DNA of 64,000 bases from Arthrobacter sp. H35-D1 (GTDB lineage Bacteria; Actinomycetota; Actinomycetes; Actinomycetales; Micrococcaceae). Of this stretch, positions 129-19,901 are shown piece after piece. Both the position numbers and the translations under genes were made by a program. The notes beneath the pieces were generated by a model. The model saw only the letters and a list, made by a program, of their open reading frames with translations. It was not told where the DNA came from and did not search any database. Numbering within the stretch: position 1 is the stretch's first letter; each line of letters starts with the position of its first letter. The stretch spans positions 1 to 64,000 of the forward strand of contig NZ_JASISP010000005.1 of the NCBI RefSeq assembly GCF_030063185.1. The letters run 5' to 3'.

Positions 129-585
129 CGCCATGGAACAGCCAGTCAGCCAACACTCAGATCACGTCAGGCTGGGGCCGCAGCCATTTACATGGCATAG
201 CAACCAAGCTCGGGCATACCCCGCCCAAGCATTCGTGTCCACGCGCTGACCGGGCCTCAGGACATGGACCTTGTCCCCTTTATGCTTGACCCCTTCATGC
301 TGGGGTGGCTCGAACGGGTCATCAATACTCAGGACCATAGGCAGCCCAGGATTGCCGAACACCCCGAGAAGATCGATGCAAATATGCTCGCATTCACACC
401 GTTCCCTGCAAGCCACCGGCTGCAGGCCTGGTTGGACGCCCCGGACGCTCCTGATCGTCACCCCCGCTGACGCACCCATCACCAAACCACGCGACGCTCA
501 ACACGAATGCGACCTCGTCGTCTCAACACAACGGGGAACCCAATGACGTTCCGATGCCCGCGCCAACATCAAGGGTTCGCGCACC
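129..585. other. Spacer without a convincing gene
   Basis: About 460 bases between the left-edge gene fragment and the copper-cluster promoter. Short open frames exist on both strands, but none has a good ribosome site or a recognisable product. It may contain decayed coding sequence, but nothing supports a specific assignment. Confidence 0.5.
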
Positions 586-615
586 TTGACTCGAAATACC
601 CCCGGAGGGTATATT
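586..615 (+). promoter_or_regulatory. Promoter of the copper cluster
   Basis: A -35 element TTGACT (586-591) and a -10 element TATATT (610-615) are separated by 18 bases, a good match to a housekeeping SigA-type promoter. Transcription would start near 622 and leave a leader of about 100 bases before the first gene at 724. A palindromic operator lies between the two elements and overlaps the -10. Confidence 0.75.
596..612. promoter_or_regulatory. CsoR-type copper operator
   Basis: The 17-base dyad ATACCC-CCGGA-GGGTAT has perfect 6-base arms and a C-run/G-run core. It has the form of operators bound by the copper-sensing repressor CsoR, such as those before copZA operons. It fills the spacer of the promoter and overlaps the -10, so a bound repressor would block RNA polymerase and Cu(I) would release it. 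No csoR gene is in the window, so the regulator must be encoded elsewhere. Confidence 0.75.
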
Positions 616-723
616 TGACGTGTTGTCAGTGAAGTAGTTTGTCTCGACTGAGGATCATTCCGGTCGCCACTGCCGTTCATCCCGCAACGCACAATTCACC
701 TCTACTCAAAGGAATTAGCTGAC

Positions 724-1053
724 ATGTGCGGAATCGAAACCCGTGAAGATCTCAATCTGACCCCTGCCACTGACAGTGGCTGTTCGTGCTGCTCCACAGA
801 CTCGAGCGCCGTGGTCTCGACTCCCGCCGTTCCGGGTGGGACTGCCGGCACGAAGTACGAGCTGGAGGGCCTGACGTGCGGGCATTGCGTGCAAACCGTG
901 GAAACGGCTGTCTCAGCGGTACAGGGAGTGGAGTCGGCCACCGTTGAGTTGGTGGCCGCTGGCATCTCATCGCTGACCGTCACCGGTGATGCTGGCATGG
1001 CATCGGTGCAGGCCGCCGTCGACAATGCCGGCTACACCCTTACCGGAAACTAA
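724..1053 (+). CDS. Heavy-metal-associated (HMA) copper-binding protein, CopZ-like
   Basis: A 109-residue protein. Residues about 43-109 form one HMA domain with the metal-binding CxxC at C52-G-H-C55 (motif LTCGHC), the fold used by copper chaperones to pass Cu(I) to P-type ATPases. The first 40 residues are an unusual Cys-containing extension (C2 and G-C20-S-C22-C23-S) not found in plain CopZ and possibly a second metal site. An AAAGGA sequence about 10 bases upstream supports ATG 724. It is the first gene after the CsoR-type promoter and precedes the copper ATPase, which itself lacks an HMA domain, so this protein may act as its detached metal-binding domain. Metal selectivity is inferred from context. 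Confidence 0.85.
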   Translation: MCGIETREDLNLTPATDSGCSCCSTDSSAVVSTPAVPGGTAGTKYELEGLTCGHCVQTVETAVSAVQGVESATVELVAAGISSLTVTGDAGMASVQAAVDNAGYTLTGN

Positions 1054-1094
1054 CCATCTGCTGCCCTTTTCCGCACCGCTGAGCTAGGAGTGAC

Positions 1095-3239
1095 GTGGAC
1101 AACCACAACAAACCCACCGGCCACCAAGCGACTGACACCGCACCGGAACGGGTCTTGCCTGTAAATCAAAAAACCGCAAGTCATACAGTGCTGGATCAGC
1201 CCTCGATGCAGCACGGCGACATGGCTCATGACGACCATGCCGTGCACAACGAGGGACAACATGCCGGTCATAGCACCGCCATGTTCAAGAACCGCTTCTG
1301 GCTGACCCTGCTCCTGTCCATCCCTGTCGTGTTCTTCAGTCCCATGTTCGGGAATCTCCTTGGCTACGCCGTGCCCGAGTTCCCAGGTTCGGTCTGGATC
1401 CCGCCTCTGCTGGGAACCATCATCTTCTTCTACGGTGGCCAGCCGTTCCTCAAGGGTGGATGGCAGGAAATCAAGTCCCGCCAACCGGCCATGATGCTGC
1501 TCATCTCCATGGCCATCACGGTCGCCTTCATTGCTTCTTGGGTGACGAGCCTGGGCCTTGGCGGCTTCGACCTGGATTTCTGGTGGGAGCTGGCACTGCT
1601 GGTGGCCATCATGTTGCTAGGGCACTGGATTGAAATGCGCGCACTCGGCTCAGCCAGAGGTGCCCTCGATGCACTGGCGGCCCTGTTGCCGGATGAGGCT
1701 GAGCGGGTTGTCGACGGCGGCACCGAAACCATCAGCATCGCACAGCTGAACCCCGACGATATTGTCCTGGTCCGTCCCGGCGCAAGGCTGCCCGCTGACG
1801 GAGAAATCACCGACGGGTCCGCTGAAGTAGACGAGTCCATGATCACCGGCGAGTCCAAAACCGTCCCCCGCTCGATCGGGGACCCCGTGGTGGCTGGCAC
1901 TGTTGCAACGGATAGTTCTCTCCGCGTAAGGGTGACAGCCGTCGGGGATGACACAGCGTTGGCGGGGATTCAGCGGCTGGTGTCCGAAGCCCAATCCTCC
2001 ACATCCCGGGCACAGGCACTGGCCGACCGTGCCGCAGCGTTCCTGTTTTACTTCGCCGCCGGGGCCGGCGTCATCACCTTCATCGTTTGGTCGCTGCTGG
2101 GCAGCATTCCCGACGCCGTAGCCCGCACCGTGACAGTGCTCGTCATTGCCTGCCCCCACGCCCTGGGTCTAGCTATCCCCTTGGTCATTGCCATCTCCAC
2201 CGAGCGTGCGGCCAAGGCAGGGGTATTGATCAAGGACCGGATGGCTTTGGAGCGGATGCGGACCATCGACGTCGTCCTCTTCGACAAAACCGGAACCCTC
2301 ACCAAGGGCGAACCGGCCCTCACGGACGTCGCCGCCGTTGATGGACTGACAACGGATGAGTTGTTGACTCTAGCGGCCGCTGTGGAATCAGACAGCGAAC
2401 ACCCCGTGGCCCGCGCCATCATTGCAGCCGCGAACAAGGCCGACACTCCAGCCTTGGCAGCCACGGCGTTCCATTCGATGACCGGCCGCGGAGTCCAAGC
2501 AACCATTGATGGTTCCACCGTGGCCGTCGGCGGTCCGGCACTACTGACGGAACTCGAACTCACCGAACCAGAGCAGATCGCAACTGCGACAACAGAGTGG
2601 ATGAACCGCGGGGCCTCGATTCTGCACGTCATCAAGGATGGTGCGGTGATCGGCGCCGTCGCCTTGGAAGATGAAATCCGTAATGAATCCCGACAGGCAG
2701 TCCACGCCCTGCAGACCCGGGGCATCAAAGTTGCCATAATCACCGGTGACGCCCAGCAAGTCGCCACGGCTGTGGCCGCCGAGCTCGGCATCGACGAGGT
2801 CTTTGCCGAAGTCCTGCCCCAAGACAAAGATCAGAAAGTGGCCGAACTCCAAGGCCGCGGCATGAAGGTGGCCATGGTCGGTGACGGCGTCAATGACGCA
2901 CCCGCACTCGCCAGGGCAGAAGTTGGCATCGCGATCGGTGCCGGAACGGACGTCGCCATGGAATCCGCCGGAGTGGTTCTGGCCGGAAACGACCCCCGCG
3001 CCGTGCTCTCCACAGTCGACCTGTCCCAAGCCAGTTATCGTAAGATGTGGCAAAACTTGGTCTGGGCCACCGGCTACAATATTATCGCCGTCCCCCTGGC
3101 CGCCGGAGTGCTGGCCGGCGTCGGGTTCGTGCTCTCACCCGCCGCCGGAGCAGTACTCATGTCCCTGTCCACTATTGTCGTGGCACTGAACGCCCAACTG
3201 CTGCGCCGACTCAAGCTCAACCCGGCCGAGGTGCGCTAA
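1095..3239 (+). CDS. copB: Copper-translocating P-type ATPase, CPH (CopB) type
   Basis: A 714-residue P1B-type ATPase that exports copper across the membrane using ATP. It shows the actuator TGES (251-254), the transmembrane metal motif CPH (C353-P-H355), the phosphorylation motif DKTGT (D397) and the hinge GDGVNDAP (596-603). CPH instead of CPC marks the CopB subgroup. There is no N-terminal HMA domain; the first 65 residues are His/Met-rich (for example MQHGDMAHDDH), as in CopB proteins. The GTG start at 1095 has TAGGAG four bases upstream. It is second in the copper operon, 41 bases after the HMA protein. Substrate (Cu+ or Cu2+) cannot be decided from sequence. Confidence 0.93.
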   Translation: MDNHNKPTGHQATDTAPERVLPVNQKTASHTVLDQPSMQHGDMAHDDHAVHNEGQHAGHSTAMFKNRFWLTLLLSIPVVFFSPMFGNLLGYAVPEFPGSVWIPPLLGTIIFFYGGQPFLKGGWQEIKSRQPAMMLLISMAITVAFIASWVTSLGLGGFDLDFWWELALLVAIMLLGHWIEMRALGSARGALDALAALLPDEAERVVDGGTETISIAQLNPDDIVLVRPGARLPADGEITDGSAEVDESMITGESKTVPRSIGDPVVAGTVATDSSLRVRVTAVGDDTALAGIQRLVSEAQSSTSRAQALADRAAAFLFYFAAGAGVITFIVWSLLGSIPDAVARTVTVLVIACPHALGLAIPLVIAISTERAAKAGVLIKDRMALERMRTIDVVLFDKTGTLTKGEPALTDVAAVDGLTTDELLTLAAAVESDSEHPVARAIIAAANKADTPALAATAFHSMTGRGVQATIDGSTVAVGGPALLTELELTEPEQIATATTEWMNRGASILHVIKDGAVIGAVALEDEIRNESRQAVHALQTRGIKVAIITGDAQQVATAVAAELGIDEVFAEVLPQDKDQKVAELQGRGMKVAMVGDGVNDAPALARAEVGIAIGAGTDVAMESAGVVLAGNDPRAVLSTVDLSQASYRKMWQNLVWATGYNIIAVPLAAGVLAGVGFVLSPAAGAVLMSLSTIVVALNAQLLRRLKLNPAEVR

Positions 3240-3322
3240 ACCCGCTCCACCGGAACCACCCAGTTTGGCCCAGTACACTTCACAACGACCATCATCACCC
3301 AGCCGCCAGGAAGGTTCCGGCC

Positions 3323-3844
3323 ATGCATGCACGCAGCTTCTTGCCGCTGCAGGGAACCTTGCTGCGCTGGGGCGGGCTGCTCATTCTCATGCTCGTCTTG
3401 GTGGTCGGACTGCTGGGCATGCACGTGATCGGCAGCGGGCAGACAGCGGCGTCGTCAGCACCGGTCTACGCTAGTAGCGCCGGCGCGACAGAAATTACCG
3501 CCAATATGACAGCAGTCGACCCTGCTGCGGCTATTCCTGTCGCTGCGCACTCTGCAGCGACACCTGCCCTGACGGCCTCCGATCATGTCCAGGCTTCTGC
3601 AGTTCCCGACTACCAAGGCAGCAATGCGGTCTGCGGGTGTGCACCGTCGGGCTGTGACACATCGATGGCCAGCCACGGGGCTTGCATCCCCGCCGCAGGG
3701 GCTGCCACACCAGCGGCTCCACCGCCCGGGCTGGTTCCTGACCCTGCCGCCGGCCCCACCGAAACTGGTCATGCCAAGCCCAAGCCGGCGGACCTCGTCT
3801 TCAACGCCCCGTCCCTGACTCAACTCTGCATCAGCCGAACATAG
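3323..3844 (+). CDS. DUF6153 family membrane-anchored Cys-containing protein
   Basis: A 173-residue protein of the DUF6153 type found beside copper genes in actinobacteria. One membrane segment spans about residues 14-36, followed by an Ala/Pro/Thr-rich extracytoplasmic region with a Cys cluster (C-G-C, then C, then C) around residues 105-125 in a CGCAPSGCD context. The frame is open much further upstream, but the start is ATG 3323, preceded by AGGAAGG at 3308-3314; the upstream part is a shadow of the ATPase gene. The function is unknown. The Cys pattern outside the membrane suggests metal binding or thiol exchange, which fits with CcdA in the same cluster; this is inference. Confidence 0.75.
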   Translation: MHARSFLPLQGTLLRWGGLLILMLVLVVGLLGMHVIGSGQTAASSAPVYASSAGATEITANMTAVDPAAAIPVAAHSAATPALTASDHVQASAVPDYQGSNAVCGCAPSGCDTSMASHGACIPAAGAATPAAPPPGLVPDPAAGPTETGHAKPKPADLVFNAPSLTQLCISRT

Positions 3845-3950
3845 AACGACGGCCCTGCCTGCCACCCTGTGGCGGGACATCGTCTACGCACCCCACCACG
3901 GGGTGACGGCTCCCCTGTAGTGAAACCCTTTGAGTTGAGGACTGTTCCCC

Positions 3951-4553
3951 TTGAAAAAAATTCTGACCTTTTCCGCGACCGCACTTGCCGCGATAATTGC
4001 CCTATCCGGCTGCTCCACCGGCACCGAAGGCGGTGCCATGCCCGGCATGGACCACGGCAGCTCGGCCATGTCCACCGCACAGGGTCCCTCCATCGACGGG
4101 GAGCACAATGCAGCAGACACGATGTTCGCCCAAATGATGCTGCCCCACCACTCCCAGGCGGTGGAGATGAGTGACATCATGCTGGCAAAGCCCGGCATGG
4201 ACGCAAAAATCATCGCCCTGTCCAAGGACATAAAAGCCGCCCAGGCCCCGGAGATCACCACCATGACGAACTTTCTAAACTCTTGGGGTGAACCCACCGC
4301 CATGACGGGGGACCACGCTATGGAGGGCATGATGACCAGCGCCGATTTGGACAAACTGAAGGCCGCCGAAGGCACCGAAGCCGCAAGGATGTTCCTGATC
4401 CAGATGACTGCCCACCACGAAGGCGCCTTGCAAATGGCCAAGACCGAGGTCGTAGACGGCAAGAACTCTGATGCCGTCTCGCTGGCCAAAACGATCGTTT
4501 CCAGCCAAGAAGCCGAAATCAACGACATGAAAGATCTGCTGGCAGCCCTCTAA
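3951..4553 (+). CDS. DUF305 family lipoprotein
   Basis: A 200-residue secreted lipoprotein with a signal peptide ending in lipobox L-S-G-C21. The mature part is a four-helix DUF305 (ferritin-like) domain with paired histidines in MLPHHSQAVEM (H66-H67) and MTAHHEGALQMA (H155-H156), plus a Met/His-rich N-terminus (MPGMDHG). These His and Met residues are plausible copper ligands. The start is TTG 3951, with GTTGAGG about 10 bases upstream. DUF305 proteins are common in copper-resistance loci, but their biochemical role is not settled. It lies between the DUF6153 gene and the BNR-repeat lipoprotein and should be lipidated by Lgt, which is encoded in the same cluster. Confidence 0.88.
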   Translation: MKKILTFSATALAAIIALSGCSTGTEGGAMPGMDHGSSAMSTAQGPSIDGEHNAADTMFAQMMLPHHSQAVEMSDIMLAKPGMDAKIIALSKDIKAAQAPEITTMTNFLNSWGEPTAMTGDHAMEGMMTSADLDKLKAAEGTEAARMFLIQMTAHHEGALQMAKTEVVDGKNSDAVSLAKTIVSSQEAEINDMKDLLAAL

Positions 4554-4573
4554 CGGACCACCCGCGCCAACTA

Positions 4574-4609
4574 TCGGTGGCGGTACGGCCCAGTTGCGGC
4601 CGCCACCGA
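4574..4609. terminator. Hairpin between the DUF305 and BNR-repeat genes
   Basis: Perfect 10-base arms TCGGTGGCGG (4574-4583) and CCGCCACCGA (4600-4609) enclose a 16-base loop. A T-run at 4628-4635 lies too far away for a classical intrinsic terminator. It may act as a partial terminator or a processing site within the operon. Confidence 0.45.
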
Positions 4610-4646
4610 CCCAGTTCACCCCGTTACTTTTTTTTGGAGACCACTA

Positions 4647-5537
4647 GTGACCCCCCGCACTCTCTTTTCACGCACTCGCCTCTCGATCGCCGGCGCGGCG
4701 CTTGCCTTCCCGCTGGCATTGGCCGGCTGCACGTCAGCCACCACCTCCACCACCTCCGATGCACCCGCGACCATGCCGGCCCCTGCCGGGCATGTCCATG
4801 CGATTTCGGTGGACCCGGTAACCACTGAAGTCCTGCTCGCCACCCATGACGGTCTCTACGACGCCACCGGCGAATCCTCTGTCAAGGTCGGCACGAACAC
4901 CATTGACCTCATGGGATTCACTCCCACTGCCGATCCCCAAGTGTTCTATGCCTCCGGCCACCCCGGGCCCGGCTCGACACTGCCGAACCCCGTCGGACTC
5001 ATCCGCTCCACGGATGCCGGCAAAACGTGGGAGCCTCTCTCACGCCAAGGCCAATCTGACTTCCACGCGCTGACCGCCTCACGAGACAACCTCGTCGCCT
5101 TCGACGGCGAACTGCGCACCAGCACCGACGGCATCACTTGGGACACCTCCACAGCGACCTTCGCCCCTGCCGTACTGGCCAGCAACCCCTCCACACCGAT
5201 AGTCCTGGCCACCACCGAGGAAGGCCTGCAACGCTCCACCGACGGCGGGAAGACCTGGGAACCCGTCCCAACCGCCCCACTGATGCAATTTGTCGCCTTC
5301 GCCGCCTCGGCCCAGAAGGCCCCCACCGACGTCGCGGGGGTTGCCCCGGATGGCAGCGTCCATGTCTCCACCGACGCCGGACTCACCTGGACAGCCACAG
5401 GAACGGTGGAAGGAGAAGTCCAAGCCATCACCGCCCTGGCCGGTGACGCTGGCAAACCGGCAATCTGGGCATCCACAACTACAGGTATCCAGAACTCCAC
5501 CGACGGCGGAGCAACCTTCAGCTCCGCCACACCCTAA
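4647..5537 (+). CDS. F510_1955-type BNR/Asp-box repeat lipoprotein
   Basis: A 296-residue lipoprotein with lipobox L-A-G-C28. The mature region is a beta-propeller built from BNR/Asp-box repeats: [36 protein letters not shown] and STDGGATF recur at regular spacing. This is the sialidase-like F510_1955 family, named as glycosyl hydrolases although no catalytic sialidase residues can be assigned here. GTG 4647 is preceded by TTGGAGA. It sits between DUF305 and ccdA, and such propeller proteins recur with CcdA and DUF3105 in copper clusters of Gram-positive bacteria, so a structural or metal-related role outside the membrane is more likely than glycan cleavage. Confidence 0.8.
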
Positions 5538-5541
5538 CGTC

Positions 5542-6291
5542 GTGGACATCGGGGAATTCTTCGCCACCAACGTCACCGACGGTGCCCTGCTCTTGGCCAT
5601 GTTGCTGGCCCTCGTCGCCGGCATAGTGTCTTTCCTGTCGCCGTGCATCTTGCCGCTGGTGCCCGGATACCTGGGCTATGTATCCGGGCTGGCCAATCCC
5701 AACGAGCCGGGGAACCGCCGCCGCGTCTTGACCGGGGTGGGGTTGTTCATTCTGGGCTTCGCCGCCGTGTTCACGCTCTACGGTGCCGCATTTGGCCTGA
5801 TCGGATCATGGCTGCTGCGCTGGCAGGACCTGCTCATGCGCTTCCTGGGAATCGTGGTCATTCTGATGGGTCTGGTGCTGCTGGGCGGTTTCTCTTGGCT
5901 CCAGCAGAGCCGCAAAATGAATCTCACCCGCCGCACCGGTCTCGGCGGCGCCCCGGTATTGGGCGTCGTGTTTGGACTGGGGTGGACCCCCTGCATGGGC
6001 CCCACGCTCAGCGCCGTCCTTGCCCTGAGCGTCTCAACGGGCAGCGCCGGGCGCGGGGCCTTGCTGGCCTTCGTCTACTGCCTGGGCCTCGGCATTCCCT
6101 TTGTCCTCGTGGCTCTGGGACTCGGCTGGGTCACTCGTGTATTGGGCCTGGTCCGCCGGCATATCCGCGTGGTCAACATCCTCGGGGCAGCGATGCTGAT
6201 CGCCCTGGGCCTGATGATGGTCACCGGCCTGTGGATGAAATGGATCTATCAATTGCAAAACCTCGCCGGCACCTTCATCACCCCCGTCTAA
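5542..6291 (+). CDS. ccdA: CcdA-type thiol-disulfide transmembrane protein
   Basis: A 249-residue integral membrane protein with six to seven hydrophobic segments. Members pass reducing equivalents from cytoplasmic thioredoxin to extracytoplasmic thiol proteins through two membrane cysteines, seen here in [14 protein letters not shown] (C35) and GWTPCMGPT (C151). The GTG start lies four bases after the preceding stop codon, so translation is probably coupled; no clear Shine-Dalgarno sequence is present. No cytochrome c maturation genes (resB, ccsA) are nearby. Its job is therefore more likely to keep Cys residues of this copper cluster reduced than to serve cytochrome c, an inference from context. 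The frame is open upstream to 5290, but that part lies inside the previous gene. Confidence 0.88.
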
Positions 6292-6316
6292 CCGGCCACC
6301 AACAAAGGATTTCACC

Positions 6317-7894
6317 ATGAACAACACCCTCAACCGACGCTCCTTCCTTGGACTGTCCGTCGCCGCTGCCGCCATGGCCGCGCTCAGTGCCTGCACTCCC
6401 GCCATCAAAGCAAGCCAACAGAACCGGATACTGCCCACGGATCCGCTGATCGCGGACACCGAAGCCAGCCGGGCTGCAACCGGGAAAACCATCACCGCGA
6501 CGCTGACACCGGCACCACTGACCACCACGCTGGCAGGCAAAACCATCACCACCGCCGGCTACAACGGCACCCTCGTGGCACCAACCCTGCGCGGCGCAGT
6601 GGGCGACCAACTCAAGGTCGCTGTTGCCAACAAGCTCAGTGACGGCACCAGCGTGCACTGGCACGGACTGGCCCTGCGCAACAACGACGACGGCGTGCCC
6701 GGCATCACCCAGGACGCATTCGCCCCCGGGTCCGAGAATGGCTACGACTTCAAGCTCTCCCACCCCGGAACCTACTGGTACCACTCACACGTGGAAATGC
6801 AGCGCGAACAAGCCCTCTACGGGGCGCTCATCATCGATGATCCCAATGAGACGCTCGTTTATGACAAGGAATGGGTGATCATCCTTGATGACTGGCTCGA
6901 CGGAGTCACCGGAACACCGGAGGACGTCATGAAGGAACTCTCCCAGGGCATGGGCGCAGGCATGGGAGAGGGTGGAATGGACGGCATGGACCACGGCAAC
7001 ACGGACCAAGGAACAAAGGACCCGGGAACCATGGACCAAGGTGGCGGCATGACTATGGGGCACATGCTCATGGGTGCCTCCAGCGACTTTTTGGGCGGCG
7101 ACGCCGGTGACGTCGCCTACCCCTTCCATCTCTTCAACGGCAAGGACCCGGGAAATCCGGAAACATTCATGGCCAAACCGGGTGAGAAAGTCCGCCTGCG
7201 CATCATCAACGCTGCCGGGGACACCGCCTACCGTCTCGGCGTCCCCAACCAGCAGCTGACCCTGACCCACACCGACGGGTTCCCCATCCGGCACACCGAG
7301 GTCGACGCCGTCGTCCTCGGCATGGGTGAGCGCATCGACGCCCTCCTGACAGTTAAGGAAGGCTTTACCGCCGTTCTAGCACTGGCCGAAGGGAAAGGGC
7401 AAATGGCCTACGGGCTCATCACCACAGGGGCCGGGACCGCCCCAGCCCGGGAGAGCCTGCCCACCACCCTCACCGGCACAGTGGTCGACGGCGGCCAACT
7501 CACCGCGGACCCCTCCGTGACCCTGCCCGCCAAGAAACCCGACCGGGTCCATGAACTACGGCTCACCGGCGGAATGATGAAGTACGACTGGAGCATCAAC
7601 GGACGCCGCTTCGATATGGCCAAACCGTTCGAGAATGCCTTTGACCTCAAAGCCGGGGAACGGGTGGAAGTGAAGTTCATCAACGACACCATGATGTGGC
7701 ACCCCATGCACATCCACGGCCACACCTTCCAAATCGGAACCGATGGGGCCCGGAAGGACACCGTCATTGTCCGGCCCATGGAAACCGTGACCGTCCAGTT
7801 CGATGCAGACAATCCGGGCCAGTGGCTCTTCCACTGCCACAACGCCTACCATGCAGAACGCGGCATGATGGGCATCTTCTCCTATCTCAGCTAA
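6317..7894 (+). CDS. Multicopper oxidase with Tat-type signal and lipobox
   Basis: A 525-residue multicopper oxidase likely to oxidise Cu(I) to less toxic Cu(II) outside the membrane, like CueO. The N-terminus has a twin-arginine motif (NRRSFLG, R7-R8) and a lipobox L-S-A-C26, so the folded enzyme would be Tat-exported and lipid-anchored. Copper motifs are complete: HWHG (114-117), YWYHSH, HPMHIHGH (462-469) and HCHNAYHAERGM (506-517), giving type 1 ligands C507, H512 and M517. A Met/Asp/Gly-rich insertion at about 208-252 (GMGAGMGEGGMDGMDHG) resembles the Met-rich copper-binding segment of CueO. The ATG at 6317 follows AAAGGA. It is in the copper operon, after ccdA and before lgt. Confidence 0.93.
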   Translation: MNNTLNRRSFLGLSVAAAAMAALSACTPAIKASQQNRILPTDPLIADTEASRAATGKTITATLTPAPLTTTLAGKTITTAGYNGTLVAPTLRGAVGDQLKVAVANKLSDGTSVHWHGLALRNNDDGVPGITQDAFAPGSENGYDFKLSHPGTYWYHSHVEMQREQALYGALIIDDPNETLVYDKEWVIILDDWLDGVTGTPEDVMKELSQGMGAGMGEGGMDGMDHGNTDQGTKDPGTMDQGGGMTMGHMLMGASSDFLGGDAGDVAYPFHLFNGKDPGNPETFMAKPGEKVRLRIINAAGDTAYRLGVPNQQLTLTHTDGFPIRHTEVDAVVLGMGERIDALLTVKEGFTAVLALAEGKGQMAYGLITTGAGTAPARESLPTTLTGTVVDGGQLTADPSVTLPAKKPDRVHELRLTGGMMKYDWSINGRRFDMAKPFENAFDLKAGERVEVKFINDTMMWHPMHIHGHTFQIGTDGARKDTVIVRPMETVTVQFDADNPGQWLFHCHNAYHAERGMMGIFSYLS

Positions 7895-7906
7895 GGCCCA
7901 ACCACC

Positions 7907-8839
7907 ATGATTCCCACAACACTGAATAGCATGTCCATTCCTTCCCCCACCGTGGCAGCGTTCCAACTCGGACCGCTGACCATCCGCTACTACGCCCTGT
8001 GCATCCTGGCAGGAATCATCATTGCAGTCTGGCTCGCCGGCCGGCGGCTGACCGCCCGGGGAGGAACTCCGGGGGTGATCCTGGACATTACGATGTGGGC
8101 GGTCCCCTTCGGGATCGTCGGCGGACGCCTCTATCACGTCATCACGGACCCCGAGCTGTATTTTGTACCCGGGAAAAATCCGTGGAACGCGCTGAAAATT
8201 TGGGACGGCGGGCTGGGCATCTGGGGTGCCATCGCGTTGGGCCTGCTCGGGGCCTACATTGGCTGCCGCCGCCACAACGTGCCCTTTGCCACACTCATTG
8301 ACGCAGCGGCGCCAGGACTGCTGATCGCTCAGGGCCTGGGCCGGTGGGGAAACTGGTTCAACAACGAACTCTACGGCGGCCCCAGCACTGCGCTGTGGAA
8401 ACTGCAGATCCACCAGATGGACTTCACCACCGGCCGAGCCGTCCTCGACAATTCCGGGGTGCCAGTGGTGCTCGGCTACTTTCAACCAACGTTTCTCTAC
8501 GAATCCTTGTGGTGCCTGGCCGCAGCCGCGGTCCTGCTGGTCCTGGACAAAAAATTCCGCTTCGGTGCCGGATCCGTATTTGCGCTCTACGTGGTTTTTT
8601 ACACTTCCGGACGGTTCATGTTCGAACTACTCCGCTCCGACTACGCCAACACCATTCTGGGACTGCGGGTGAACACCTGGGTCTCGGGCCTGCTGCTGCT
8701 CGCCGGGACTGCCTGGTTCCTTGCCACACGCCGCAAGGCCCGCTCCACCATCAATTCCTCCACCGAAGATTCAGCGCCCACGGCCAGTTCCTCCGACGCC
8801 GTTGTAAAGCCGTCTTCCTTGGGAGCCCCCAATGAATGA
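7907..8839 (+). CDS. lgt: Prolipoprotein diacylglyceryl transferase (cluster copy)
   Basis: A 310-residue membrane enzyme that transfers diacylglycerol from phosphatidylglycerol to the lipobox Cys of prolipoproteins. It has the Lgt signature around GRWGNWFNNELYGG (about residues 145-160), an early RYYALCILAG segment and about seven membrane helices, with a Ser/Thr-rich C-terminal tail. ATG 7907 gives the longest form; ATG 7931 is an alternative, and neither has a strong ribosome site. It starts 12 bases after the multicopper oxidase and overlaps the DUF3105 gene by 8 bases, so it belongs to this operon. Its presence with three lipoproteins suggests a dedicated copy beside a housekeeping lgt elsewhere. 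Confidence 0.93.
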   Translation: MIPTTLNSMSIPSPTVAAFQLGPLTIRYYALCILAGIIIAVWLAGRRLTARGGTPGVILDITMWAVPFGIVGGRLYHVITDPELYFVPGKNPWNALKIWDGGLGIWGAIALGLLGAYIGCRRHNVPFATLIDAAAPGLLIAQGLGRWGNWFNNELYGGPSTALWKLQIHQMDFTTGRAVLDNSGVPVVLGYFQPTFLYESLWCLAAAAVLLVLDKKFRFGAGSVFALYVVFYTSGRFMFELLRSDYANTILGLRVNTWVSGLLLLAGTAWFLATRRKARSTINSSTEDSAPTASSSDAVVKPSSLGAPNE

Positions 8840-9479
8840 TGCCAACGACCACCAAGCCCAACGCCAAGCCGAACGCCAAGCAAAAGTAAATGCAGTGTTG
8901 ACCGCGCACCGGCGCAAGCAACGCAACCGGAGCCTCTTCGTCTACGGCGGCCTTGGCCTGCTGGCGATCGCCGTCATCACCATCGTCGCGTTCGTCGTTA
9001 CCGGTTCCGTTCAATCTCGGACTGCCACGGAGGAGGCTGCCAAGAAACCTATCGCCGGCATCGAGACCTACTCGAACCTGACCCGCAACCACGTCAAAAC
9101 TGCGGTGGGCTACCCGCAGGTCCCGGGTGTCGGCGGGGACCACTCGGCAACCTGGACCAACTGCGGTACATACCCGGAACCTGTAAATGAAGAGCGGGCA
9201 GTCCACTCCCTTGAACACGGGGCAGTGTGGATCACTTACAAGCCCGGCATCTCCCCCACAGATCTGGGGACGTTGACAACTCTGGTCAAGAACAAGCCTT
9301 ATGTCCTGCTCAGCCCCAACCCGGACCAAACCTCCGCTGTCACCGCCTCCGCGTGGGGCACCCAGCTCAACGTCCCGAGCGCCGACGATTCCCGCCTGCC
9401 CGTCTTCATCAAGGCCTACGCCATGGGCCCGCAAACACCCGAACCCGGGGCAGCCTGCTCCGGTGGCACCAACGGTTGA
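8832..9479 (+). CDS. DUF3105 family membrane-anchored protein
   Basis: A 215-residue protein with a charged N-terminus rich in Gln/Arg/Ala (coiled-coil-like, residues 5-32), one membrane helix at about 37-58 and an extracytoplasmic DUF3105 domain. The domain shows conserved His and Cys positions in RNHVKTAVGYPQVP, GGDHSATWTNCGTYPEPV and VHSLEHGAVWITY. These residues could bind metal, but no activity is established for the family. The gene overlaps lgt by 8 bases, implying translational coupling. DUF3105 genes recur in copper and mercury clusters of actinobacteria. Confidence 0.85.
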   Translation: MNDANDHQAQRQAERQAKVNAVLTAHRRKQRNRSLFVYGGLGLLAIAVITIVAFVVTGSVQSRTATEEAAKKPIAGIETYSNLTRNHVKTAVGYPQVPGVGGDHSATWTNCGTYPEPVNEERAVHSLEHGAVWITYKPGISPTDLGTLTTLVKNKPYVLLSPNPDQTSAVTASAWGTQLNVPSADDSRLPVFIKAYAMGPQTPEPGAACSGGTNG

Positions 9480-9506
9480 CCCACCACACCCCTTAGGAGA
9501 CATCCC

Positions 9507-9752
9507 GTGAACAACAATCTCCCCGACAACGACGTTGCCAAAGACTTCCGGCACCACCGCTTTCTGGTCCGAATGGGACAACTGATAATAGCAGTCGGGG
9601 TCTTGGTGGGACTCTCCCACTGGATCGTCCACGTCGCCCTAACTGGGGGCCCACCCGGAATCCAGGACCTCTTCATCGGCTATCCCACCGCCGCAGTCCT
9701 GATGATCGTCGGAGCCGTTCTCGCCGGACGGGCCACTCCCAAGAAACGCTGA
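9507..9752 (+). CDS. Small two-helix membrane protein
   Basis: An 81-residue protein with two predicted membrane helices (about 25-47 and 56-75), a charged N-terminus and a basic tail (TPKKR). The GTG start at 9507 has TAGGAGA six bases upstream, and it follows the DUF3105 gene by 27 bases, so it is the last gene of the copper operon. It is not recognised as a named family. The strong hairpin 100 bases downstream probably ends the transcript. Confidence 0.7.
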   Translation: MNNNLPDNDVAKDFRHHRFLVRMGQLIIAVGVLVGLSHWIVHVALTGGPPGIQDLFIGYPTAAVLMIVGAVLAGRATPKKR

Positions 9753-9851
9753 CAGGTGCACTGAGAGGCACCCGCAACCACGTGGACCCCGGAATCGGCT
9801 ATGGGGCGCCGTCCGACCTCCGCAGCACCCATTTGCGCGCAGAGGCCAGCA

Positions 9852-9889
9852 GGCCCTGGATTCCCCGGCTGGCCGAGGGATCCAGGGCC
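9852..9889. terminator. Bidirectional terminator hairpin between convergent genes
   Basis: Arms GGCCCTGGA (9852-9860) and TCCAGGGCC (9881-9889) pair perfectly. A further TCCC/GGGA pairing inside, separated by one bulged T, extends the stem. It lies between the end of the copper operon and the convergent M23 peptidase gene and can serve both strands. Confidence 0.7.
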
Positions 9890-9916
9890 CATCATCCGTC
9901 GGTGTTGCGCAGCCGG

Positions 9917-10744
9917 TCAGATGAAGGGTGCGGGATCAATGGTTTGGCCGTTCTGCATGACTTCAAAATGCAGGTGGCAGCCGGTGGAGTTTCCCGTGGT
10001 CCCGACGCCGGCAATCTGCGCACCCGCACCGACCTGCTGGCCTACGCTGACGGCAATGGAATCCAAGTGGTTGTATGTAGTTTTGATGCCGCCGCCATGG
10101 TCGACGACGATGCGGTTCCCGCCCCCGTACTGGCTCCAACCTGCTTCCGTCACCGTCCCGGCTCCGGCGGCGAACACCGCGGTGCCGCACGAACCGGCAA
10201 AATCAGTCCCCGTGTGCAACTCCGCGGCCGCGCCCGTCAATGGATTAGTGCGGTACCCGAACGGCGAGGTGACCGTCAGCGCGGCCAAGGGCGGGCGCAG
10301 CCCCGACAACGTCTGGACCACCGGGACCTGATCCACAGCCGCCGGTGCCGGGGTTGGAGCGGGGGCCGGGAGCGAAGATTGCTCCGCAGCGGCAGGCTGC
10401 ACTGCACTGGCAGGAGACGCCGGGGGTGCGGGTTTGCTGAAGACCTTCGGCTTGGCAAAGCTCACCTCAACATCCTTGTCGGCAGTCACGTCCTGCTGCA
10501 GCGTTGCTGAAGGCACGGACGCCCCGACGGTGACAGCCGGTGCAAGACGGTGGGATTCAGCATGGGCCACCGGCAGAGCGGTCAGGGCAATGGCTGCCGC
10601 CACTGCGACGATACCCAGCTGCTTGCGGCCCTTGCCGCCTCTACGGGCTGGTTCAAGTCCCGGGACCCAATGGCGTCCCGGCAATGCTGGCGAAGATTTG
10701 ATGGGTGTGGCGCGGCGGCGGCCGTGCTGGCGTGCGACAGACAA
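9917..10744 (-). CDS. Secreted M23 family (LytM-type) cell-wall peptidase
   Basis: A 275-residue exported protein. The signal peptide is at about 40-62 (cleavage near VAHA-E), followed by an Ala/Pro-rich linker (about 100-140) and a C-terminal M23 domain. Zinc and catalytic residues are visible: H177 and D181 in HTGTDFAG, and H257/H259 in HLHFE. M23 enzymes cut peptide cross-bridges of peptidoglycan during growth and division. The start is TTG 10744, with GAGAGG about 9 bases upstream; that ribosome site is the 3' end of the ydaO-type riboswitch, so ligand binding could control translation as well as transcription. It converges on the copper operon. Confidence 0.9.
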   Translation of the reverse strand: MSVARQHGRRRATPIKSSPALPGRHWVPGLEPARRGGKGRKQLGIVAVAAAIALTALPVAHAESHRLAPAVTVGASVPSATLQQDVTADKDVEVSFAKPKVFSKPAPPASPASAVQPAAAEQSSLPAPAPTPAPAAVDQVPVVQTLSGLRPPLAALTVTSPFGYRTNPLTGAAAELHTGTDFAGSCGTAVFAAGAGTVTEAGWSQYGGGNRIVVDHGGGIKTTYNHLDSIAVSVGQQVGAGAQIAGVGTTGNSTGCHLHFEVMQNGQTIDPAPFI

Positions 10745-10754
10745 AATGGCAATC

Positions 10755-10945
10755 CTCTCGACGCCGGCGAAGTTAGCTGTCGGATTCGGGCGAGGTGCCT
10801 CCCCGGCCCGACCAACACACGGCCGTGAGGTCCATGGTGTGCTGAGCGGGCTTCACCCCAAGGTGCACTGTGGCACCGGTGGTGGTTCCTCCGCCCCCGT
10901 CGGGAAGCTGAACGGTCGCGGTCCGCCGACGGGGTTTGGCGAAGC
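10755..10945 (-). ncRNA. ydaO-type c-di-AMP riboswitch
   Basis: The leader of the M23 peptidase gene, read on the minus strand, carries the conserved blocks of the ydaO/yuaA class: a GGAGGAACC segment, GGGGTGAA, GGCACCTC, then CCCGAATCCGACAGCTAAC followed by TTCGCCGGCGTCGAGAGG. Actinobacterial members of this class usually precede cell-wall hydrolases (rpfA, NlpC/P60, M23) and turn expression off when c-di-AMP is high. The last part overlaps the ribosome-binding site. Boundaries are approximate. Confidence 0.85.
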
Positions 10946-11007
10946 GGGCCACGAACATACCCATCAAGGGCATGTATTTTTTCAAGCCTAGCCGCCAACG
11001 GTAAAAA

Positions 11008-11013: not shown

Positions 11014-11121
11014 ATTTCGTTACACATAGATTCCGGGCACTTTCCAGTCGCCAGTTCCTCCAGCTGGCGGCCATGATGGCACCGGGGATCACAGGAGGCA
11101 AAGGCCTTTCCACTAGAACGT

Positions 11122-11832
11122 TCAGCTAGCTGGTTTGGCCTCGGTCACGGGCCGGCTGACCAGCCAAGCGATCCACAGGCCAAAGGCATACAGCGGAACA
11201 CCCATGATCAGGCGCATGGCCCCCAGGGCGTCGACTTGTTCCGTGAGGTAAAGCGGAAGTTGCACCACCAGGCGCGCCGCCATGACGGCCACCACGATCC
11301 ATGTCGCGACGCGGTAGGCACGGAGCCGTTCAGGTTTGTCACGCCAACGCACACCCTCATTGCGGGCATAACCGAACAACAGACCCAAAACAGGCCACCG
11401 CACCGCAATGGAAACCACCATGGCGAGGATGTAGGCGCCATTGGTGATGAATCCCACCAAGTAGTAATTCTCGGCTTTGCCGGTCTTCATGGCCAGGAAC
11501 GCGGAGAGTGCGACGCCGGCGATTCCGGCCAGTGCCTGGGTCAAGGGCGTGCGCTGGATCAGTCGCGCCACGAGGAAGACTACGGCCATGGCCACTGATC
11601 CGACGAGCGCAATGGTGAGGTCCCGGGTGATGGTGAAAGCCACCAGGAAGACAAGCCCGGGCAGCACACTTTCTGCAATGCCCCTGACTCCCCCGGCGGC
11701 GGCCAGCAGGTCAATGTGACCGTTTTCCTTGCGCGTCAGGGCGCTCTTGGCGGCCATTTCCTGGGCAATCTCAGCGAAACCACCGTTGGGCTCTTGCGCT
11801 GGCGGATTCTCTTCGGGGCTCTGCTGACTCAA
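11122..11832 (-). CDS. DUF3159 family integral membrane protein
   Basis: A 236-residue protein with a hydrophilic N-terminus (about 40 residues) and five to six membrane helices, matching the DUF3159 family found throughout actinobacteria. Motifs include GGVRGIAESVLPGLVF and a RNEGVRWRDKPERLRAYR loop. Its function is unknown. The TTG start directly follows the TAG stop of the upstream OB-fold gene, so translation is probably coupled. In many actinobacteria it forms a unit with the OB-fold, DUF3710 and dut genes, as here. Confidence 0.85.
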   Translation of the reverse strand: MSQQSPEENPPAQEPNGGFAEIAQEMAAKSALTRKENGHIDLLAAAGGVRGIAESVLPGLVFLVAFTITRDLTIALVGSVAMAVVFLVARLIQRTPLTQALAGIAGVALSAFLAMKTGKAENYYLVGFITNGAYILAMVVSIAVRWPVLGLLFGYARNEGVRWRDKPERLRAYRVATWIVVAVMAARLVVQLPLYLTEQVDALGAMRLIMGVPLYAFGLWIAWLVSRPVTEAKPAS

Positions 11833-14747: not shown

Positions 14748-16118
14748 ATGGCTGATCTGCGGCTGGTGGGTGTCCACGACGACGGCGGACACCTGTTGCT
14801 CAGTGGTCCCGATGGAGACATCTACCTACTTCCCTTGGATGAGGCGCTGCGCACAGCGGTGGGTAAAACGCCCCACCGCTCCGTCCACATGCTCCAGCAA
14901 TCCGGGGCCCGCATGACGCCGCGGGAAATCCAGTCGTTGGTCCGGGCCGGAGCCACCGCAGCGGATGTCTCCGAGCAATCGGGGCTGTCCCTCGAGCAGG
15001 TGCGCCGTTACGAAGGTCCCGTGCTCGCAGAGCGCGAGTACATCGCCGGCCAGGCACGGGCCGTGGAGGTTGCCGCTCCCACCGCCCACAACGACGGTTA
15101 CAAGTCTGCCTTTGGTGAGAGCCCTGCATCCTTGGATGAAATGGTGCGGCACCGCATTGCGGCCTTCGGCATCGACCCCAAGTCGCTGCGCTGGGATGCT
15201 TGGCGCGACAAGGCCGGCGACTGGACCATCAGCGCAGAATTCGAACCTGGCACCGCGATGGCAGCGACCAGCATTGGCGAGGCGCCCCCGGCCCTGTGGC
15301 GTTTCCACGCCGCACGCAAAACCCTGCACAACGCGAACCGCTGGGCGCAGCAACTCAGTGAACTCGAGCCCCTGGACAGCCCTGTCTCGGCACGTCGACT
15401 CAGCGCAGTCATCGACAAGCCCTTTGATGTCGAGGCCGACGCCGATCCCTCCGACATTGACACGGAGCCTTCCGGCGAAGGAACAGACAACCTCGATTCA
15501 CGCCCCACGGAGACGTCACCTGTCGAGGAAGAGGCACACCGCGGCCACGGCCTCCTTGACATGTTGCGATCCCGTCGCGGCGTGCGCCTGGGACTGGACG
15601 AAGACGGCGACGACGAACTGGCCGCCATGATCGGCAAGTCGGTTCCCGGTGCCCACCCCCGCGATGAAGAGCTTTATGGCGCCAAAACCGAGGACTTTGA
15701 TCCGGATATGGCCGCATCTGCAACCGACGGCGCCGGCACCGCCGCTGCACCTGCTGCAAGCAGCAAGGACAGGCTGCGTTCCATCCCGTTCCTGAAACTG
15801 GCACCGCGCCTGTCCGAGCACCACCAGCACGGCTCCGACACCCTTGGCAGTGTCGCCGAAGTCAGCAGCGAAACCAGGGAGGTCGTCGTGTCGGGCGAAC
15901 GCTCCTACGACAGTGAATCCTCGGGCAACGCTTCCACGGAAAAGGCTGCCGCAGAAAACAACGCAAGCCACAGTGGTTCCAATGACAGCACTCGCACGGA
16001 GAACGGGCCCAGCGACAGCGAAGTGGCTGCGCGATTGGAACGCAAGGCCTCCACAAAGCCCAAACGCTCCAGCGTGCCCAGCTGGGACGAAATAGTCTTC
16101 GGCACCAAGGGCGACTAG
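14748..16118 (+). CDS. sepH: Septation protein SepH
   Basis: A 456-residue SepH protein. In Streptomyces and mycobacteria SepH binds FtsZ and stimulates its assembly at division sites. The conserved N-terminal part (about 1-200, DUF3071) starts MADLRLVGVHDDG and includes a helix-turn-helix region around MTPREIQSLVRAGATAADVSEQ (about 56-95) and a WDAWRDKAGDW segment. The rest is long, acidic, Ser/Glu-rich and likely disordered, ending in a short conserved C-terminal stretch (RSSVPSWDEIVFG). GGAGG lies 5 bases before the ATG. Confidence 0.9.
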   Translation: MADLRLVGVHDDGGHLLLSGPDGDIYLLPLDEALRTAVGKTPHRSVHMLQQSGARMTPREIQSLVRAGATAADVSEQSGLSLEQVRRYEGPVLAEREYIAGQARAVEVAAPTAHNDGYKSAFGESPASLDEMVRHRIAAFGIDPKSLRWDAWRDKAGDWTISAEFEPGTAMAATSIGEAPPALWRFHAARKTLHNANRWAQQLSELEPLDSPVSARRLSAVIDKPFDVEADADPSDIDTEPSGEGTDNLDSRPTETSPVEEEAHRGHGLLDMLRSRRGVRLGLDEDGDDELAAMIGKSVPGAHPRDEELYGAKTEDFDPDMAASATDGAGTAAAPAASSKDRLRSIPFLKLAPRLSEHHQHGSDTLGSVAEVSSETREVVVSGERSYDSESSGNASTEKAAAENNASHSGSNDSTRTENGPSDSEVAARLERKASTKPKRSSVPSWDEIVFGTKGD

Positions 16119-16166
16119 CTCCGGAGGGCAACTCTGCCGTGCCGTTCTCCGTGCTTTTCATCTAAT

Positions 16167-16502
16167 GTGGAGGTGCGTTCCCCGCTAAACGTGCGATCGA
16201 GCATGGTCATTCTCGCATCCGTTCTCGTGGTCACTGTCCTGGCGTTTGGGTTGGTTGTGCTTGCCATCCATGCCATCCTGCTCTTCATCGCGCTTGTGGC
16301 GGCCCAACTGCTCTTCGTCGCAATATCGGGAACGCCGCCCGCGGGAGGGAGCGGCGATTTGGAGGCGTCGGCCGTCGGAGCAGTGCCACTGGTGGCTCGG
16401 GCATCCCTGACCAGCTCGACGATCTTTGCGGCAGTCCATGGCGTGCCGATTCTGCTGCCCTGCATGTTTACTCTCGGCTTGGCCCTGACTTTCCTGGGCT
16501 AA
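16167..16502 (+). CDS. Small hypothetical membrane protein
   Basis: A 111-residue open frame with two strongly hydrophobic segments near the N-terminus (about 13-55) and a third at the C-terminus (about 85-111), separated by a Gly/Ser/Ala-rich loop. The GTG at 16167 is the longest start; ATG 16203 at the first hydrophobic segment is an alternative. It follows sepH on the same strand by 48 bases. No family is recognised. Membrane-like composition and the absence of a better frame opposite favour a real gene. Confidence 0.45.
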   Translation: MEVRSPLNVRSSMVILASVLVVTVLAFGLVVLAIHAILLFIALVAAQLLFVAISGTPPAGGSGDLEASAVGAVPLVARASLTSSTIFAAVHGVPILLPCMFTLGLALTFLG

Positions 16503-16548
16503 AAAAGGCGGAACCAAACAAGGAGAGGCCAAACAAGGACGAGCTCCT

Positions 16549-17151
16549 TCACGGCTGTGCGCCATGCTCACGGGGCAGCAGCACTGGTCTTTTGTGCACG
16601 ATTGCACGGAGGGCCATGGTTTGTGCTTTCCCCACGAGATGCCGGGGGTCGCCGGCGTTCGCGCCGATCATCGCCAGCGCTTTCTCGAAATGATGGTCGG
16701 CAGCGTTCTTGTCATGGAGCGCTGGTGCCCACAACAAAGCAAACCCGGCACGCTTTGTAAACTCGCCCCCGCTGTTGGCCCACGGCTCGAGCATCGACCA
16801 CGCAGCAGGAGCCGTGCCGAACAGCGTGAAACACACGGGGTCCACCAGGGCCCAGTTATCGAAGTCGGAGCACCAGTCATTCATTTGATCCACGTCAACA
16901 AGCTGCGGGTCGTCAATATGCGCGGTGATGGTGCGTGCCTCGTAAAGTTCTGACGTCCACAGCGCCAGGGCAAGGCCGTGGTTCGGGCGCAGCGGTTTGG
17001 CCATCGCTTTCATACTGGCCATGGTGATGCCGACCGCTTGATCGGTATGGATCCCGTAACGGGTGCCCAGTTCGGCCCGCACATTGGGATCGCCTTCGCC
17101 ACGGAGTTGTGTGAGGATGGCGGCCGCGCGTACTTCCAGGTCGTCGCTCAT
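16549..17151 (-). CDS. AlkD-like DNA alkylation repair (HEAT-repeat) protein, short
   Basis: A 200-residue protein of the PF08713 DNA alkylation repair family, which builds a HEAT-like superhelix and in AlkD removes alkylated purines. Family landmarks are LALALWTSELYEARTITAHI, NDWCSDFDNWALVDPVC and KRAGFALLWAPALHDK. Full members run to about 230-240 residues with a further helical pair after the ALR motif; this one stops shortly after MALRAIVHKRP, so the C-terminus may be eroded. It lies 51 bases after a VOC protein gene on the same strand, in a stretch that interrupts the conserved sepH neighbourhood. Glycosylase activity is uncertain. Confidence 0.75.
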   Translation of the reverse strand: MSDDLEVRAAAILTQLRGEGDPNVRAELGTRYGIHTDQAVGITMASMKAMAKPLRPNHGLALALWTSELYEARTITAHIDDPQLVDVDQMNDWCSDFDNWALVDPVCFTLFGTAPAAWSMLEPWANSGGEFTKRAGFALLWAPALHDKNAADHHFEKALAMIGANAGDPRHLVGKAQTMALRAIVHKRPVLLPREHGAQP

Positions 17152-17202
17152 GCGTCGCTTCCCAAGGCCTCGTCTGTCGAGATCCGTCAGGGCATTCCGC
17201 TG

Positions 17203-17598
17203 TCAGTACTTTTCACCGGTGCGCCATGCCATTTCCTGCAACGTCAGGGTGTTGCCGTCCGGGTCGCTGAGCGAAGCGAACTTTACGCCTCCGCCAACAT
17301 CAACAATTTCACTGACATCAGTCCCGCGCCCCAGGAGGTGGTCTCGGGTCTTTTCAATGTCTGCCACCACCAGATGCAAAGCCTTGACCGTGCCTGGGAA
17401 CCTGTCGTCATAGGCGGGCATGCCCGTGCCCAAACCGATCGAACACGCAGACCCTGGCGGTGTCAGTTGCACCACTCGAACACCTTCAGCGGGACGCACA
17501 TCAACATCCTCGACGAACCCGAGCTTTCCGACGTAGAAGGCTTTGGCCCGGTCAACATCGCTGACAGGGATCGGTATCAACTCGAGCTTCATGTTCAT
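17203..17598 (-). CDS. VOC family (glyoxalase/bleomycin-resistance fold) protein
   Basis: A 131-residue protein with the beta-alpha-beta-beta-beta repeats of vicinal oxygen chelate proteins: SDVDRAKAFYVGKLGF at the first unit, VVADIEKTRDHLLGRG at the second, and a C-terminal SLSDPDGNTLTLQE typical of the family. The start is ATG 17598, preceded by GGAGTG; the longer frame upstream lacks support. The substrate cannot be deduced. It lies between the frameshifted alkyl sulfatase and the AlkD-like gene on the same strand. Confidence 0.82.
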   Translation of the reverse strand: MNMKLELIPIPVSDVDRAKAFYVGKLGFVEDVDVRPAEGVRVVQLTPPGSACSIGLGTGMPAYDDRFPGTVKALHLVVADIEKTRDHLLGRGTDVSEIVDVGGGVKFASLSDPDGNTLTLQEMAWRTGEKY

Positions 17599-17806
17599 CA
17601 CGGCACTCCTTGGTGTTCGCTGGACGAGAGCAGATGTGGCTCTCGTTCGTGACGCCACATGCGTGCCTAGGTCTCATGGCTGGACGCGTCCAACCATGTT
17701 CACAGCATATAGAAGTAGTCGGGGATGCGGGAGGCCACTCGCTCGGTGGGTGTGGCAAACCAGGTGTTGCTCGACGCTCTCGATGGCATGCTCTACACGG
17801 GAACGC

Positions 17807-19818: not shown

Positions 19819-19901
19819 CCCCCGAACCGGGCGATTCCCGTCGATACAACCACGTTGGGCCTGTTGCCCCCTCCTCGCTGTCCCCTCCGTGGGCAGGGCC
19901 G

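Follow-up and report, generated by a model that had tools for sequence, protein, structure and literature searches.

Armbruster et al. reportedly described, in 2019, a lit2-lgt2 copper-resistance element of Listeria and Enterococcus. According to excerpts of two papers on these bacteria, lgt2, a second gene for the lipoprotein-lipidating enzyme Lgt, is co-transcribed with lit2 and copper genes and is induced by copper (PMC8275575, PMC8689077). The tcrYAZB-cueO copper island of Enterococcus also carries lgt (PMC4511184, in excerpt), and in Pseudarthrobacter sp. AG30 a multicopper oxidase (MCO) gene, lgt and CopD adjoin csoR-copZA (PMC6256500). Here we describe a copper-handling gene unit of Arthrobacter sp. 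H35-D1, found at positions 724 to 9752 of the first 64,000 nt of contig C55 (192,784 bases, in a genome of 4.46 Mb and 86 contigs); this whole 64,000-nt stretch is called hereafter the window. Its general kind, a mobile copper-resistance unit, is known, and what is new is that this variant has an Lgt lineage of its own. Probably, it moves horizontally, is under CsoR-type regulation and detoxifies copper, mainly at the outer face of the membrane.

The interval is filled by ten open reading frames (ORFs) on the same strand, with spacings of 41, 83, 106, 93, 4, 25, 12, -8 and 27 bp. Protein families were assigned by Pfam and NCBIfam profile scans, and gene calls prioritised ORFs supported by hidden Markov models; corrected starts were 3323 for gene 3 and 5542 for ccdA. 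The genes are as follows.

724..1053, + strand: CopZ-like heavy-metal-associated (HMA) domain protein (PF00403, 49.1 bits)
1095..3239, + strand: CopB-type P1B ATPase with CPH motif and His-rich N-terminus (TIGR01511, 586 bits; motifs)
3323..3844, + strand: DUF6153-like membrane-anchored protein, gene 3 (21.2 bits, under the cut-off of 27.7)
3951..4553, + strand: DUF305 (CopM-like) lipoprotein (PF03713, 143.8 bits; CopM model, 89.6 bits)
4647..5537, + strand: F510_1955 / BNR lipoprotein with a conserved His/Met set (NF045728, 245.4 bits versus a cut-off of 175)
5542..6291, + strand: CcdA (DsbD_TM) thiol-electron membrane protein (PF02683, 53.2 bits)
6317..7894, + strand: MCO, a lipoprotein of the twin-arginine translocation (Tat) type with a Met-rich insert (family scan; copper ligands)
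7907..8839, + strand: second Lgt, Lgt2 clade (TIGR00544, 148 versus 118.9 bits; tree)
8832..9479, + strand: DUF3105 membrane-anchored protein (PF11303, 145.8 bits; conserved His/Cys)
9507..9752, + strand: small membrane protein with two conserved His, gene 10 (conservation only)

The ten-gene, operon-like, copper-related run that a first-pass annotation of this DNA had proposed is therefore real, and it may be co-transcribed. The three lipoboxes that had been claimed were read in the sequence: LSGC in the DUF305 protein, LAGC in the F510_1955 protein, and LSAC, after the twin-arginine motif RRSFLG, in the MCO. That export, anchoring and oxidation are encoded together holds (for oxidation, by family membership); no thioredoxin partner of CcdA is encoded in the run. 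The term "self-contained" had to be given up: the sole lspA found in the genome lies at C55:87765, beyond the window, the three CsoR-family genes of the genome are all on contigs other than C55, and TlpA, ResB and CcsA, found together with CcdA in some relatives, are absent from the ten genes. The copper unit also reaches past 724-9752, with a palindrome at 597-611 at one side and a convergent M23 gene at the other; both had been missed, as had a chromosomal junction near 11.1 kb.

That no description of such a set existed was too strong a statement, since related sets appear in PMC6256500 and in the excerpts of PMC4511184, PMC8275575 and PMC8689077. As in the lit2-lgt2 element, so far as the excerpts describe it, a second lgt stands beside a copper pump, a metallochaperone and a copper oxidase, all carried on mobile DNA, and here the ATPase, metallochaperone and copper oxidase genes lie in one run. 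A Listeria plasmid stretch was found to hold an MCO, an HMA protein, a CopY-type regulator and lgt. The present locus differs from the lit2-lgt2 element in that its Lgt belongs to another lineage and in that it has CcdA, F510_1955, DUF305 and DUF3105, whereas DUF2933 is found there; moreover, none of the ten proteins matched a Lit-like family in Pfam or NCBIfam. With another lgt lineage and no lit, the benefit of lgt cannot rest on Lit alone. In the AG30 locus, too, an MCO gene and lgt adjoin a CsoR-type copper operon, and Pseudarthrobacter is among the genera with this unit; this comparison is by description, and PMC6256500 names no DUF305, F510_1955, CcdA, DUF3105 or M23. The Enterococcus island, in the available part of its description, is likewise a mobile copper island that carries lgt along with an MCO, but it comes from Bacillota and is under CopY-type and two-component regulation. 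A term search found neither lipoprotein nor diacylglyceryl in an Arthrobacter copper-tolerance genome paper (PMC9436591), and in the literature searched the whole unit, the repeated recruitment of lgt and a copper role for F510_1955 were not found described. The published link between lgt2/lit2, copper and lipoproteins is extended here from Bacillota to Actinomycetota, and the question why copper resistance repeatedly acquires its own Lgt is made testable in soil bacteria.

The assignment of the unit to copper is strong. The ATPase carries CPH, the mark of the CopB type, along with DKTGTLT and GDGVNDAPAL, and nine of its first 62 residues are His. The copper-ligand motifs of the MCO are complete (HWHG, HSH, HPMHIHG and HCHNAYHAERGM), and 9 Met fall within a Met-rich stretch of 57 residues; against the CopA/PcoA model TIGR01480 it scored 261.3 bits, under the cut-off of 478.95. 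MmcO of Mycobacterium tuberculosis is an MCO needed for copper resistance and a Tat-exported lipoprotein, and is not known to have an lgt of its own; it resembles the present enzyme in being an actinobacterial copper-resistance MCO. The DUF305 protein keeps the pattern M..HH.....M twice and reached 89.6 bits with the CopM model NF049983, just under its cut-off of 90. CopM of Synechocystis is an exported DUF305 protein in copper resistance which, in the excerpt available, is soluble and periplasmic or extracellular (PMC4335983), whereas the DUF305 protein here has a lipobox. Potential ligands were also conserved in the DUF3105 protein (His87, His104, Cys111, His125, His129, Cys209), in the gene 3 product (Met33, His34, Cys111 and Cys121, up to 14 rows) and in the small membrane protein encoded by gene 10, which had no family match in Pfam or NCBIfam (His38 and His42, 17/17). 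The DUF305 (4020-4065) and MCO (6959-7004) genes have in common a 46-nt stretch, 76% identical, that encodes GMDHG; it is perhaps a common copper-binding segment or a low-complexity chance likeness.

In the F510_1955 protein, His51, His67, Met89, His105 and His140 were invariant in 49 sequences and His49 was kept in 48 of the 49; an alignment of 23 relatives to the window agreed with this His/Met conservation. The strongest matches to PDB profiles span the later Asp-box repeats; such repeats are not confined to xyloglucanases, being found in sortilin and Ycf48 as well. We read the protein as a propeller that may bind copper, and the glycosidase name is backed here by the family label alone. 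F510_1955, named as a glycosylhydrolase, is a candidate copper-binding family.

Both flanks of the ten genes hold further features of the unit.

586..615, + strand: promoter-like site TTGACT-18-TATATT, enclosing the CsoR-type palindrome TACCCCCGGAGGGTA at 597-611
9917..10744, - strand: exported M23 peptidase, convergent (PF01551, 107.4 bits)
10958..10972, no strand: one-mismatch candidate for a CsoR-type box of the M23 gene, in sequence aligned to L027, where the box is exact
11035..11147, no strand: junction of mobile unit and chromosome (two homology boundaries)

The palindrome sits between the hexamers of the sole promoter-like match in 500-11000. The window was searched with the CsoR operator consensus, and TACCCCCGGAGGGTA was the single exact match of TACCCCNNNNGGGTA in the 64 kb; at one mismatch there were two matches, the same site on both strands, versus 0.24 expected. 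A CsoR-type operator sequence is therefore present at the promoter, and binding by CsoR is predicted. The promoter match alone was dropped as proof, one being found versus 1.9 expected in shuffles; this weak scan gave no second promoter within the run. Beyond the window, a slightly looser CsoR-type palindrome was found 44 times in 89 loci (1.56 Mb; 80 loci of a scan of named genomes, 8 plasmid loci and the window, some of them near-copies), versus 3.2 per mononucleotide shuffle, and 29 of the 44 adjoin a copper-type gene.

An M23 cluster neighbours the unit in 11 relatives' loci (e.g. L023, L027, L037, L061, L069). Nine loci (L023, L027, L028, L029, L037, L061, L069, L072 and L124), among which L028/L029 and L069/L072 are near-copy pairs, have a CsoR-type box at most 160 bp from the M23 ORF, and in L050, L069, L072, L074 and L076 an NlpC/P60 gene is separated from the unit by such a box. 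The M23 and NlpC/P60 hydrolases are likely members of the CsoR regulon. The M23 box of the window was not retained as proof by itself: at up to two mismatches, 15 matches were found versus 14.8 expected.

A plausible course of events in such a unit would be the following. CopZ would deliver copper from the cytoplasm to the CopB-type ATPase for export. Outside, the anchored DUF305, F510_1955, DUF3105 and DUF6153-like proteins and the small membrane protein may bind copper through conserved His, Met and Cys, and the Tat-exported lipoprotein MCO would oxidise Cu(I) to Cu(II). Thiols outside the cytoplasm would receive electrons from CcdA, whose TlpA partner is encoded in relatives and not in this run, and a copper-controlled M23 peptidase might adjust the wall. 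The second Lgt would supply extra lipidation capacity when copper induces several lipoproteins together, and lipoprotein cleavage would be left to the housekeeping LspA.

The proposal of a coherent unit was strengthened by gene order in relatives, which was not random. In the named-genome scan, for which the best 80 of 189 relatives were kept, the MCO gene lies directly 5' of lgt in 16 of the 80 loci, and in 8 of those 16 the genes for DUF305, F510_1955, CcdA, MCO and Lgt are contiguous and in the same order. The order is the same on the mobilizable Pseudarthrobacter plasmid pMK-1, which reads csoR, HMA, ATPase, hypothetical, DUF305, F510_1955, ccdA, MCO, lgt, DUF3105, hypothetical, CtaG, TlpA, and nearly so on the conjugative plasmid pA. 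Copper-type genes stand within 9 kb of lgt in all five Micrococcaceae plasmid records examined (13 are listed). A search of the plasmid collection with positions 1-700 of the window gave no match. Two loci labelled as an Acidobacteria metagenome-assembled genome, L023 and L060, carry a Micrococcaceae-type Lgt2 and copper unit; the label is probably wrong and L023 mis-binned.

Counts that are not selected by lgt were obtained with MCO and F510_1955 as queries on 100 genomes of the family, the window's own included. Of the 21 MCOs with at least 59% identity, 9 have, by match coordinates, a second lgt at a distance of 16-39 bp, and 16 have F510_1955 within 6 kb. Conversely, 12 of 18 second-lgt places were within 5 kb of a close MCO or F510_1955, and 10 of 55 F510_1955 places had a second lgt no farther than 5 kb away. 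Of 296 genomes of the phylum drawn separately, 15 had F510_1955 above cut-off. Outside the present genome, lgt was found within 10 kb at 3 of 16 F510_1955 places (3.6, 2.3 and 8.8 kb), versus 0.14 expected (P = 3.4e-4), and 11 of these 16 stretches had a DUF305 or P-type ATPase match above 100 bits.

The genome has two lgt, and the products of the cluster and housekeeping copies are 52% identical over the match. Besides scoring above the TIGR00544 cut-off, the cluster copy has the core residues of an Lgt: Y29, R146, N149, E154, G157, Y232 and R236, aligned to the E. coli structure 5azb, in which the essential residues are known, were invariant in six Lgts. When the cluster Lgt was used as query on the 100 family genomes, it had matches of 62-100% identity (at least 396 bits) at 18 places, spread over 17 genomes, and all others were at or below 295 bits. 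Two of these 17 genomes, G084 and G071, gave no housekeeping-type match at E 1e-20. G084 has a completeness rating of 100%, and the extended frame of its second-type match contains one TGA; in both genomes the second type may be the sole Lgt, or a contig may be missing.

A first tree was made of 99 of 129 Lgt rows, near-copies being taken out by hand. It placed the second Lgt of Micrococcaceae in one clade of 50 rows, apart from the housekeeping Lgt of the family (Shimodaira-Hasegawa-like approximate likelihood ratio support of 99), and by a loose rule 34 of the 50 rows are at copper-type loci. This "Cu" label, which required a match above 40 bits to at least one of eight marker families within 6 kb and is thin for L116, L120 and L156, changed 10 times on the whole tree, 8 of the changes being forced by well-supported branches. 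In a more careful tree of 73 of the 129 rows, from which long-branched, doubtful and further near-copy rows were also left out, the Micrococcaceae Lgt2 clade had a support of 95/97.8. Joining to it the copper-linked Lgt of Rhodococcus pyridinivorans (p = 3.0e-4), Cryobacterium arcticum (p = 1.0e-3) or Leifsonia shinshuensis (p = 6.6e-12) was rejected by the approximately unbiased (AU) test, with p values that are somewhat optimistic because the test groups were named after the first tree. A single origin of the Actinomycetota copper-linked Lgts was also rejected, in a joint test (p = 8e-6) that expelled a non-copper subclade as well; the three separate AU tests are cleaner. In trees without Firmicute chromosomal Lgts, those from copper loci of Lactococcus, Niallia, Listeria and Enterococcus fall among Bacillota rows. 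From the rejections and the Bacillota placement, lgt joined copper loci separately in Micrococcaceae, Microbacteriaceae, Rhodococcus and Bacillota at least.

The second Lgt likely serves the lipoproteins of the unit. Instead of adding capacity, it might replace a housekeeping Lgt impaired by copper, being itself copper-tolerant or special in its substrates. Its separate clade, at about 52% identity to the housekeeping copy, and its linkage to a Tat-type lipoprotein MCO would fit such a role, but no distinguishing active-site change was seen: the residues compared are the same in both copies, including a Trp in place of the E. coli His that has a role in that enzyme. We consider a replacement rather unlikely.

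Several observations, besides the optimism of the AU tests, weigh against a dedicated role of lgt in the copper unit. Twelve close MCOs had no lgt within 5 kb, and none of the 11 such loci that were read has one, so that Lgt is not the fixed part that the first-pass annotation took it for. DUF305, F510_1955 or an ATPase is present in each of the 11 except one judged by eye, L196, which shows only F510_1955. Lgt is therefore an accessory in a set whose core is MCO, F510_1955, DUF305 and ATPase. A Tat lipobox was present in the MCO N-terminus of 6 of the 11, the N-terminus not being visible in the other 5, and the housekeeping Lgt seems sufficient at these loci. In favour of the unit, a lipobox was found by regular expression in 21/22 MCO, 30/35 F510_1955, 26/31 DUF305 and 24/25 TlpA proteins with lgt within 10 kb. 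Where no lgt was seen, it was found in 7/14 F510_1955 and 3/4 DUF305 proteins; the 7/14 indicates that lipidation is independent of a nearby lgt. Among 24 plasmid lgt stretches, hand-chosen and not random, 12 had a copper- or metal-type neighbourhood and 12 had no clear copper-type one. Finally, a 16-row subclade of the first tree (support of 99), spanning L038-L064 (e.g. L046, L062, L055), stands beside genes for MarR, MFS and penicillin-binding protein or other genes.

The lgt-free loci, the 16-row subclade and the plasmid stretches without copper-type neighbours would be expected if the second lgt were a passenger, gathered as a spare by copper plasmids and islands and without a copper-specific role in the unit. 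We find this improbable, given that lgt lies 16-39 bp from the MCO gene in all nine linked family loci, starts 12 bp past the MCO gene and overlaps the DUF3105 gene by 8 bp in the window, that separate lgt lineages are found at copper loci, and that a copper-induced lgt2 is published for Bacillota (excerpts of PMC8275575 and PMC8689077). It is very doubtful that the unit mainly assembles or supplies copper enzymes or cytochromes, with detoxification secondary: CtaG and TlpA do follow the unit directly on pMK-1 and pA, and ResB and CcsA adjoin lgt or MCO in some relatives, but all four are outside the ten genes here, and the exporting ATPase, CopZ, the CsoR-type box and DUF305 indicate excess copper.

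Starting from the copper-detoxification unit with its own Lgt, a broader proposal can be made, tentatively. Copper might repeatedly select a dedicated lipoprotein-making arm, in which separate lgt lineages of Actinomycetota and Bacillota act as copper-regulon enzymes that, when the housekeeping enzyme cannot, anchor the Tat-type MCO, DUF305 and F510_1955, the last as a copper-binding propeller of a new class, with wall hydrolases under copper control acting alongside.

The right edge of the unit was located by two homology boundaries. Homology of the unit ends at about 11035 with L027 and about 11025 with L023, and homology with five congeners begins at 11137-11147. In the congener G397, a gene which we take to be TrkA-like directly follows the DUF3159 gene, and the matching DNA of the present genome opens contig C10; the unit is therefore inserted between the DUF3159 and TrkA-like genes, with its left end beyond the contig. 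Near the likely far side of the insertion, at C10:258-905 (L189) of the same genome (G000), there is an ORF with a lipobox-like LTGC signal, and runs that look like half CsoR boxes are found near it. Further along the window, about 3.8 kb (16117-19896) break synteny with the congener G052; this stretch holds DNA-alkylation-repair-like and alkyl-sulfatase-like genes.

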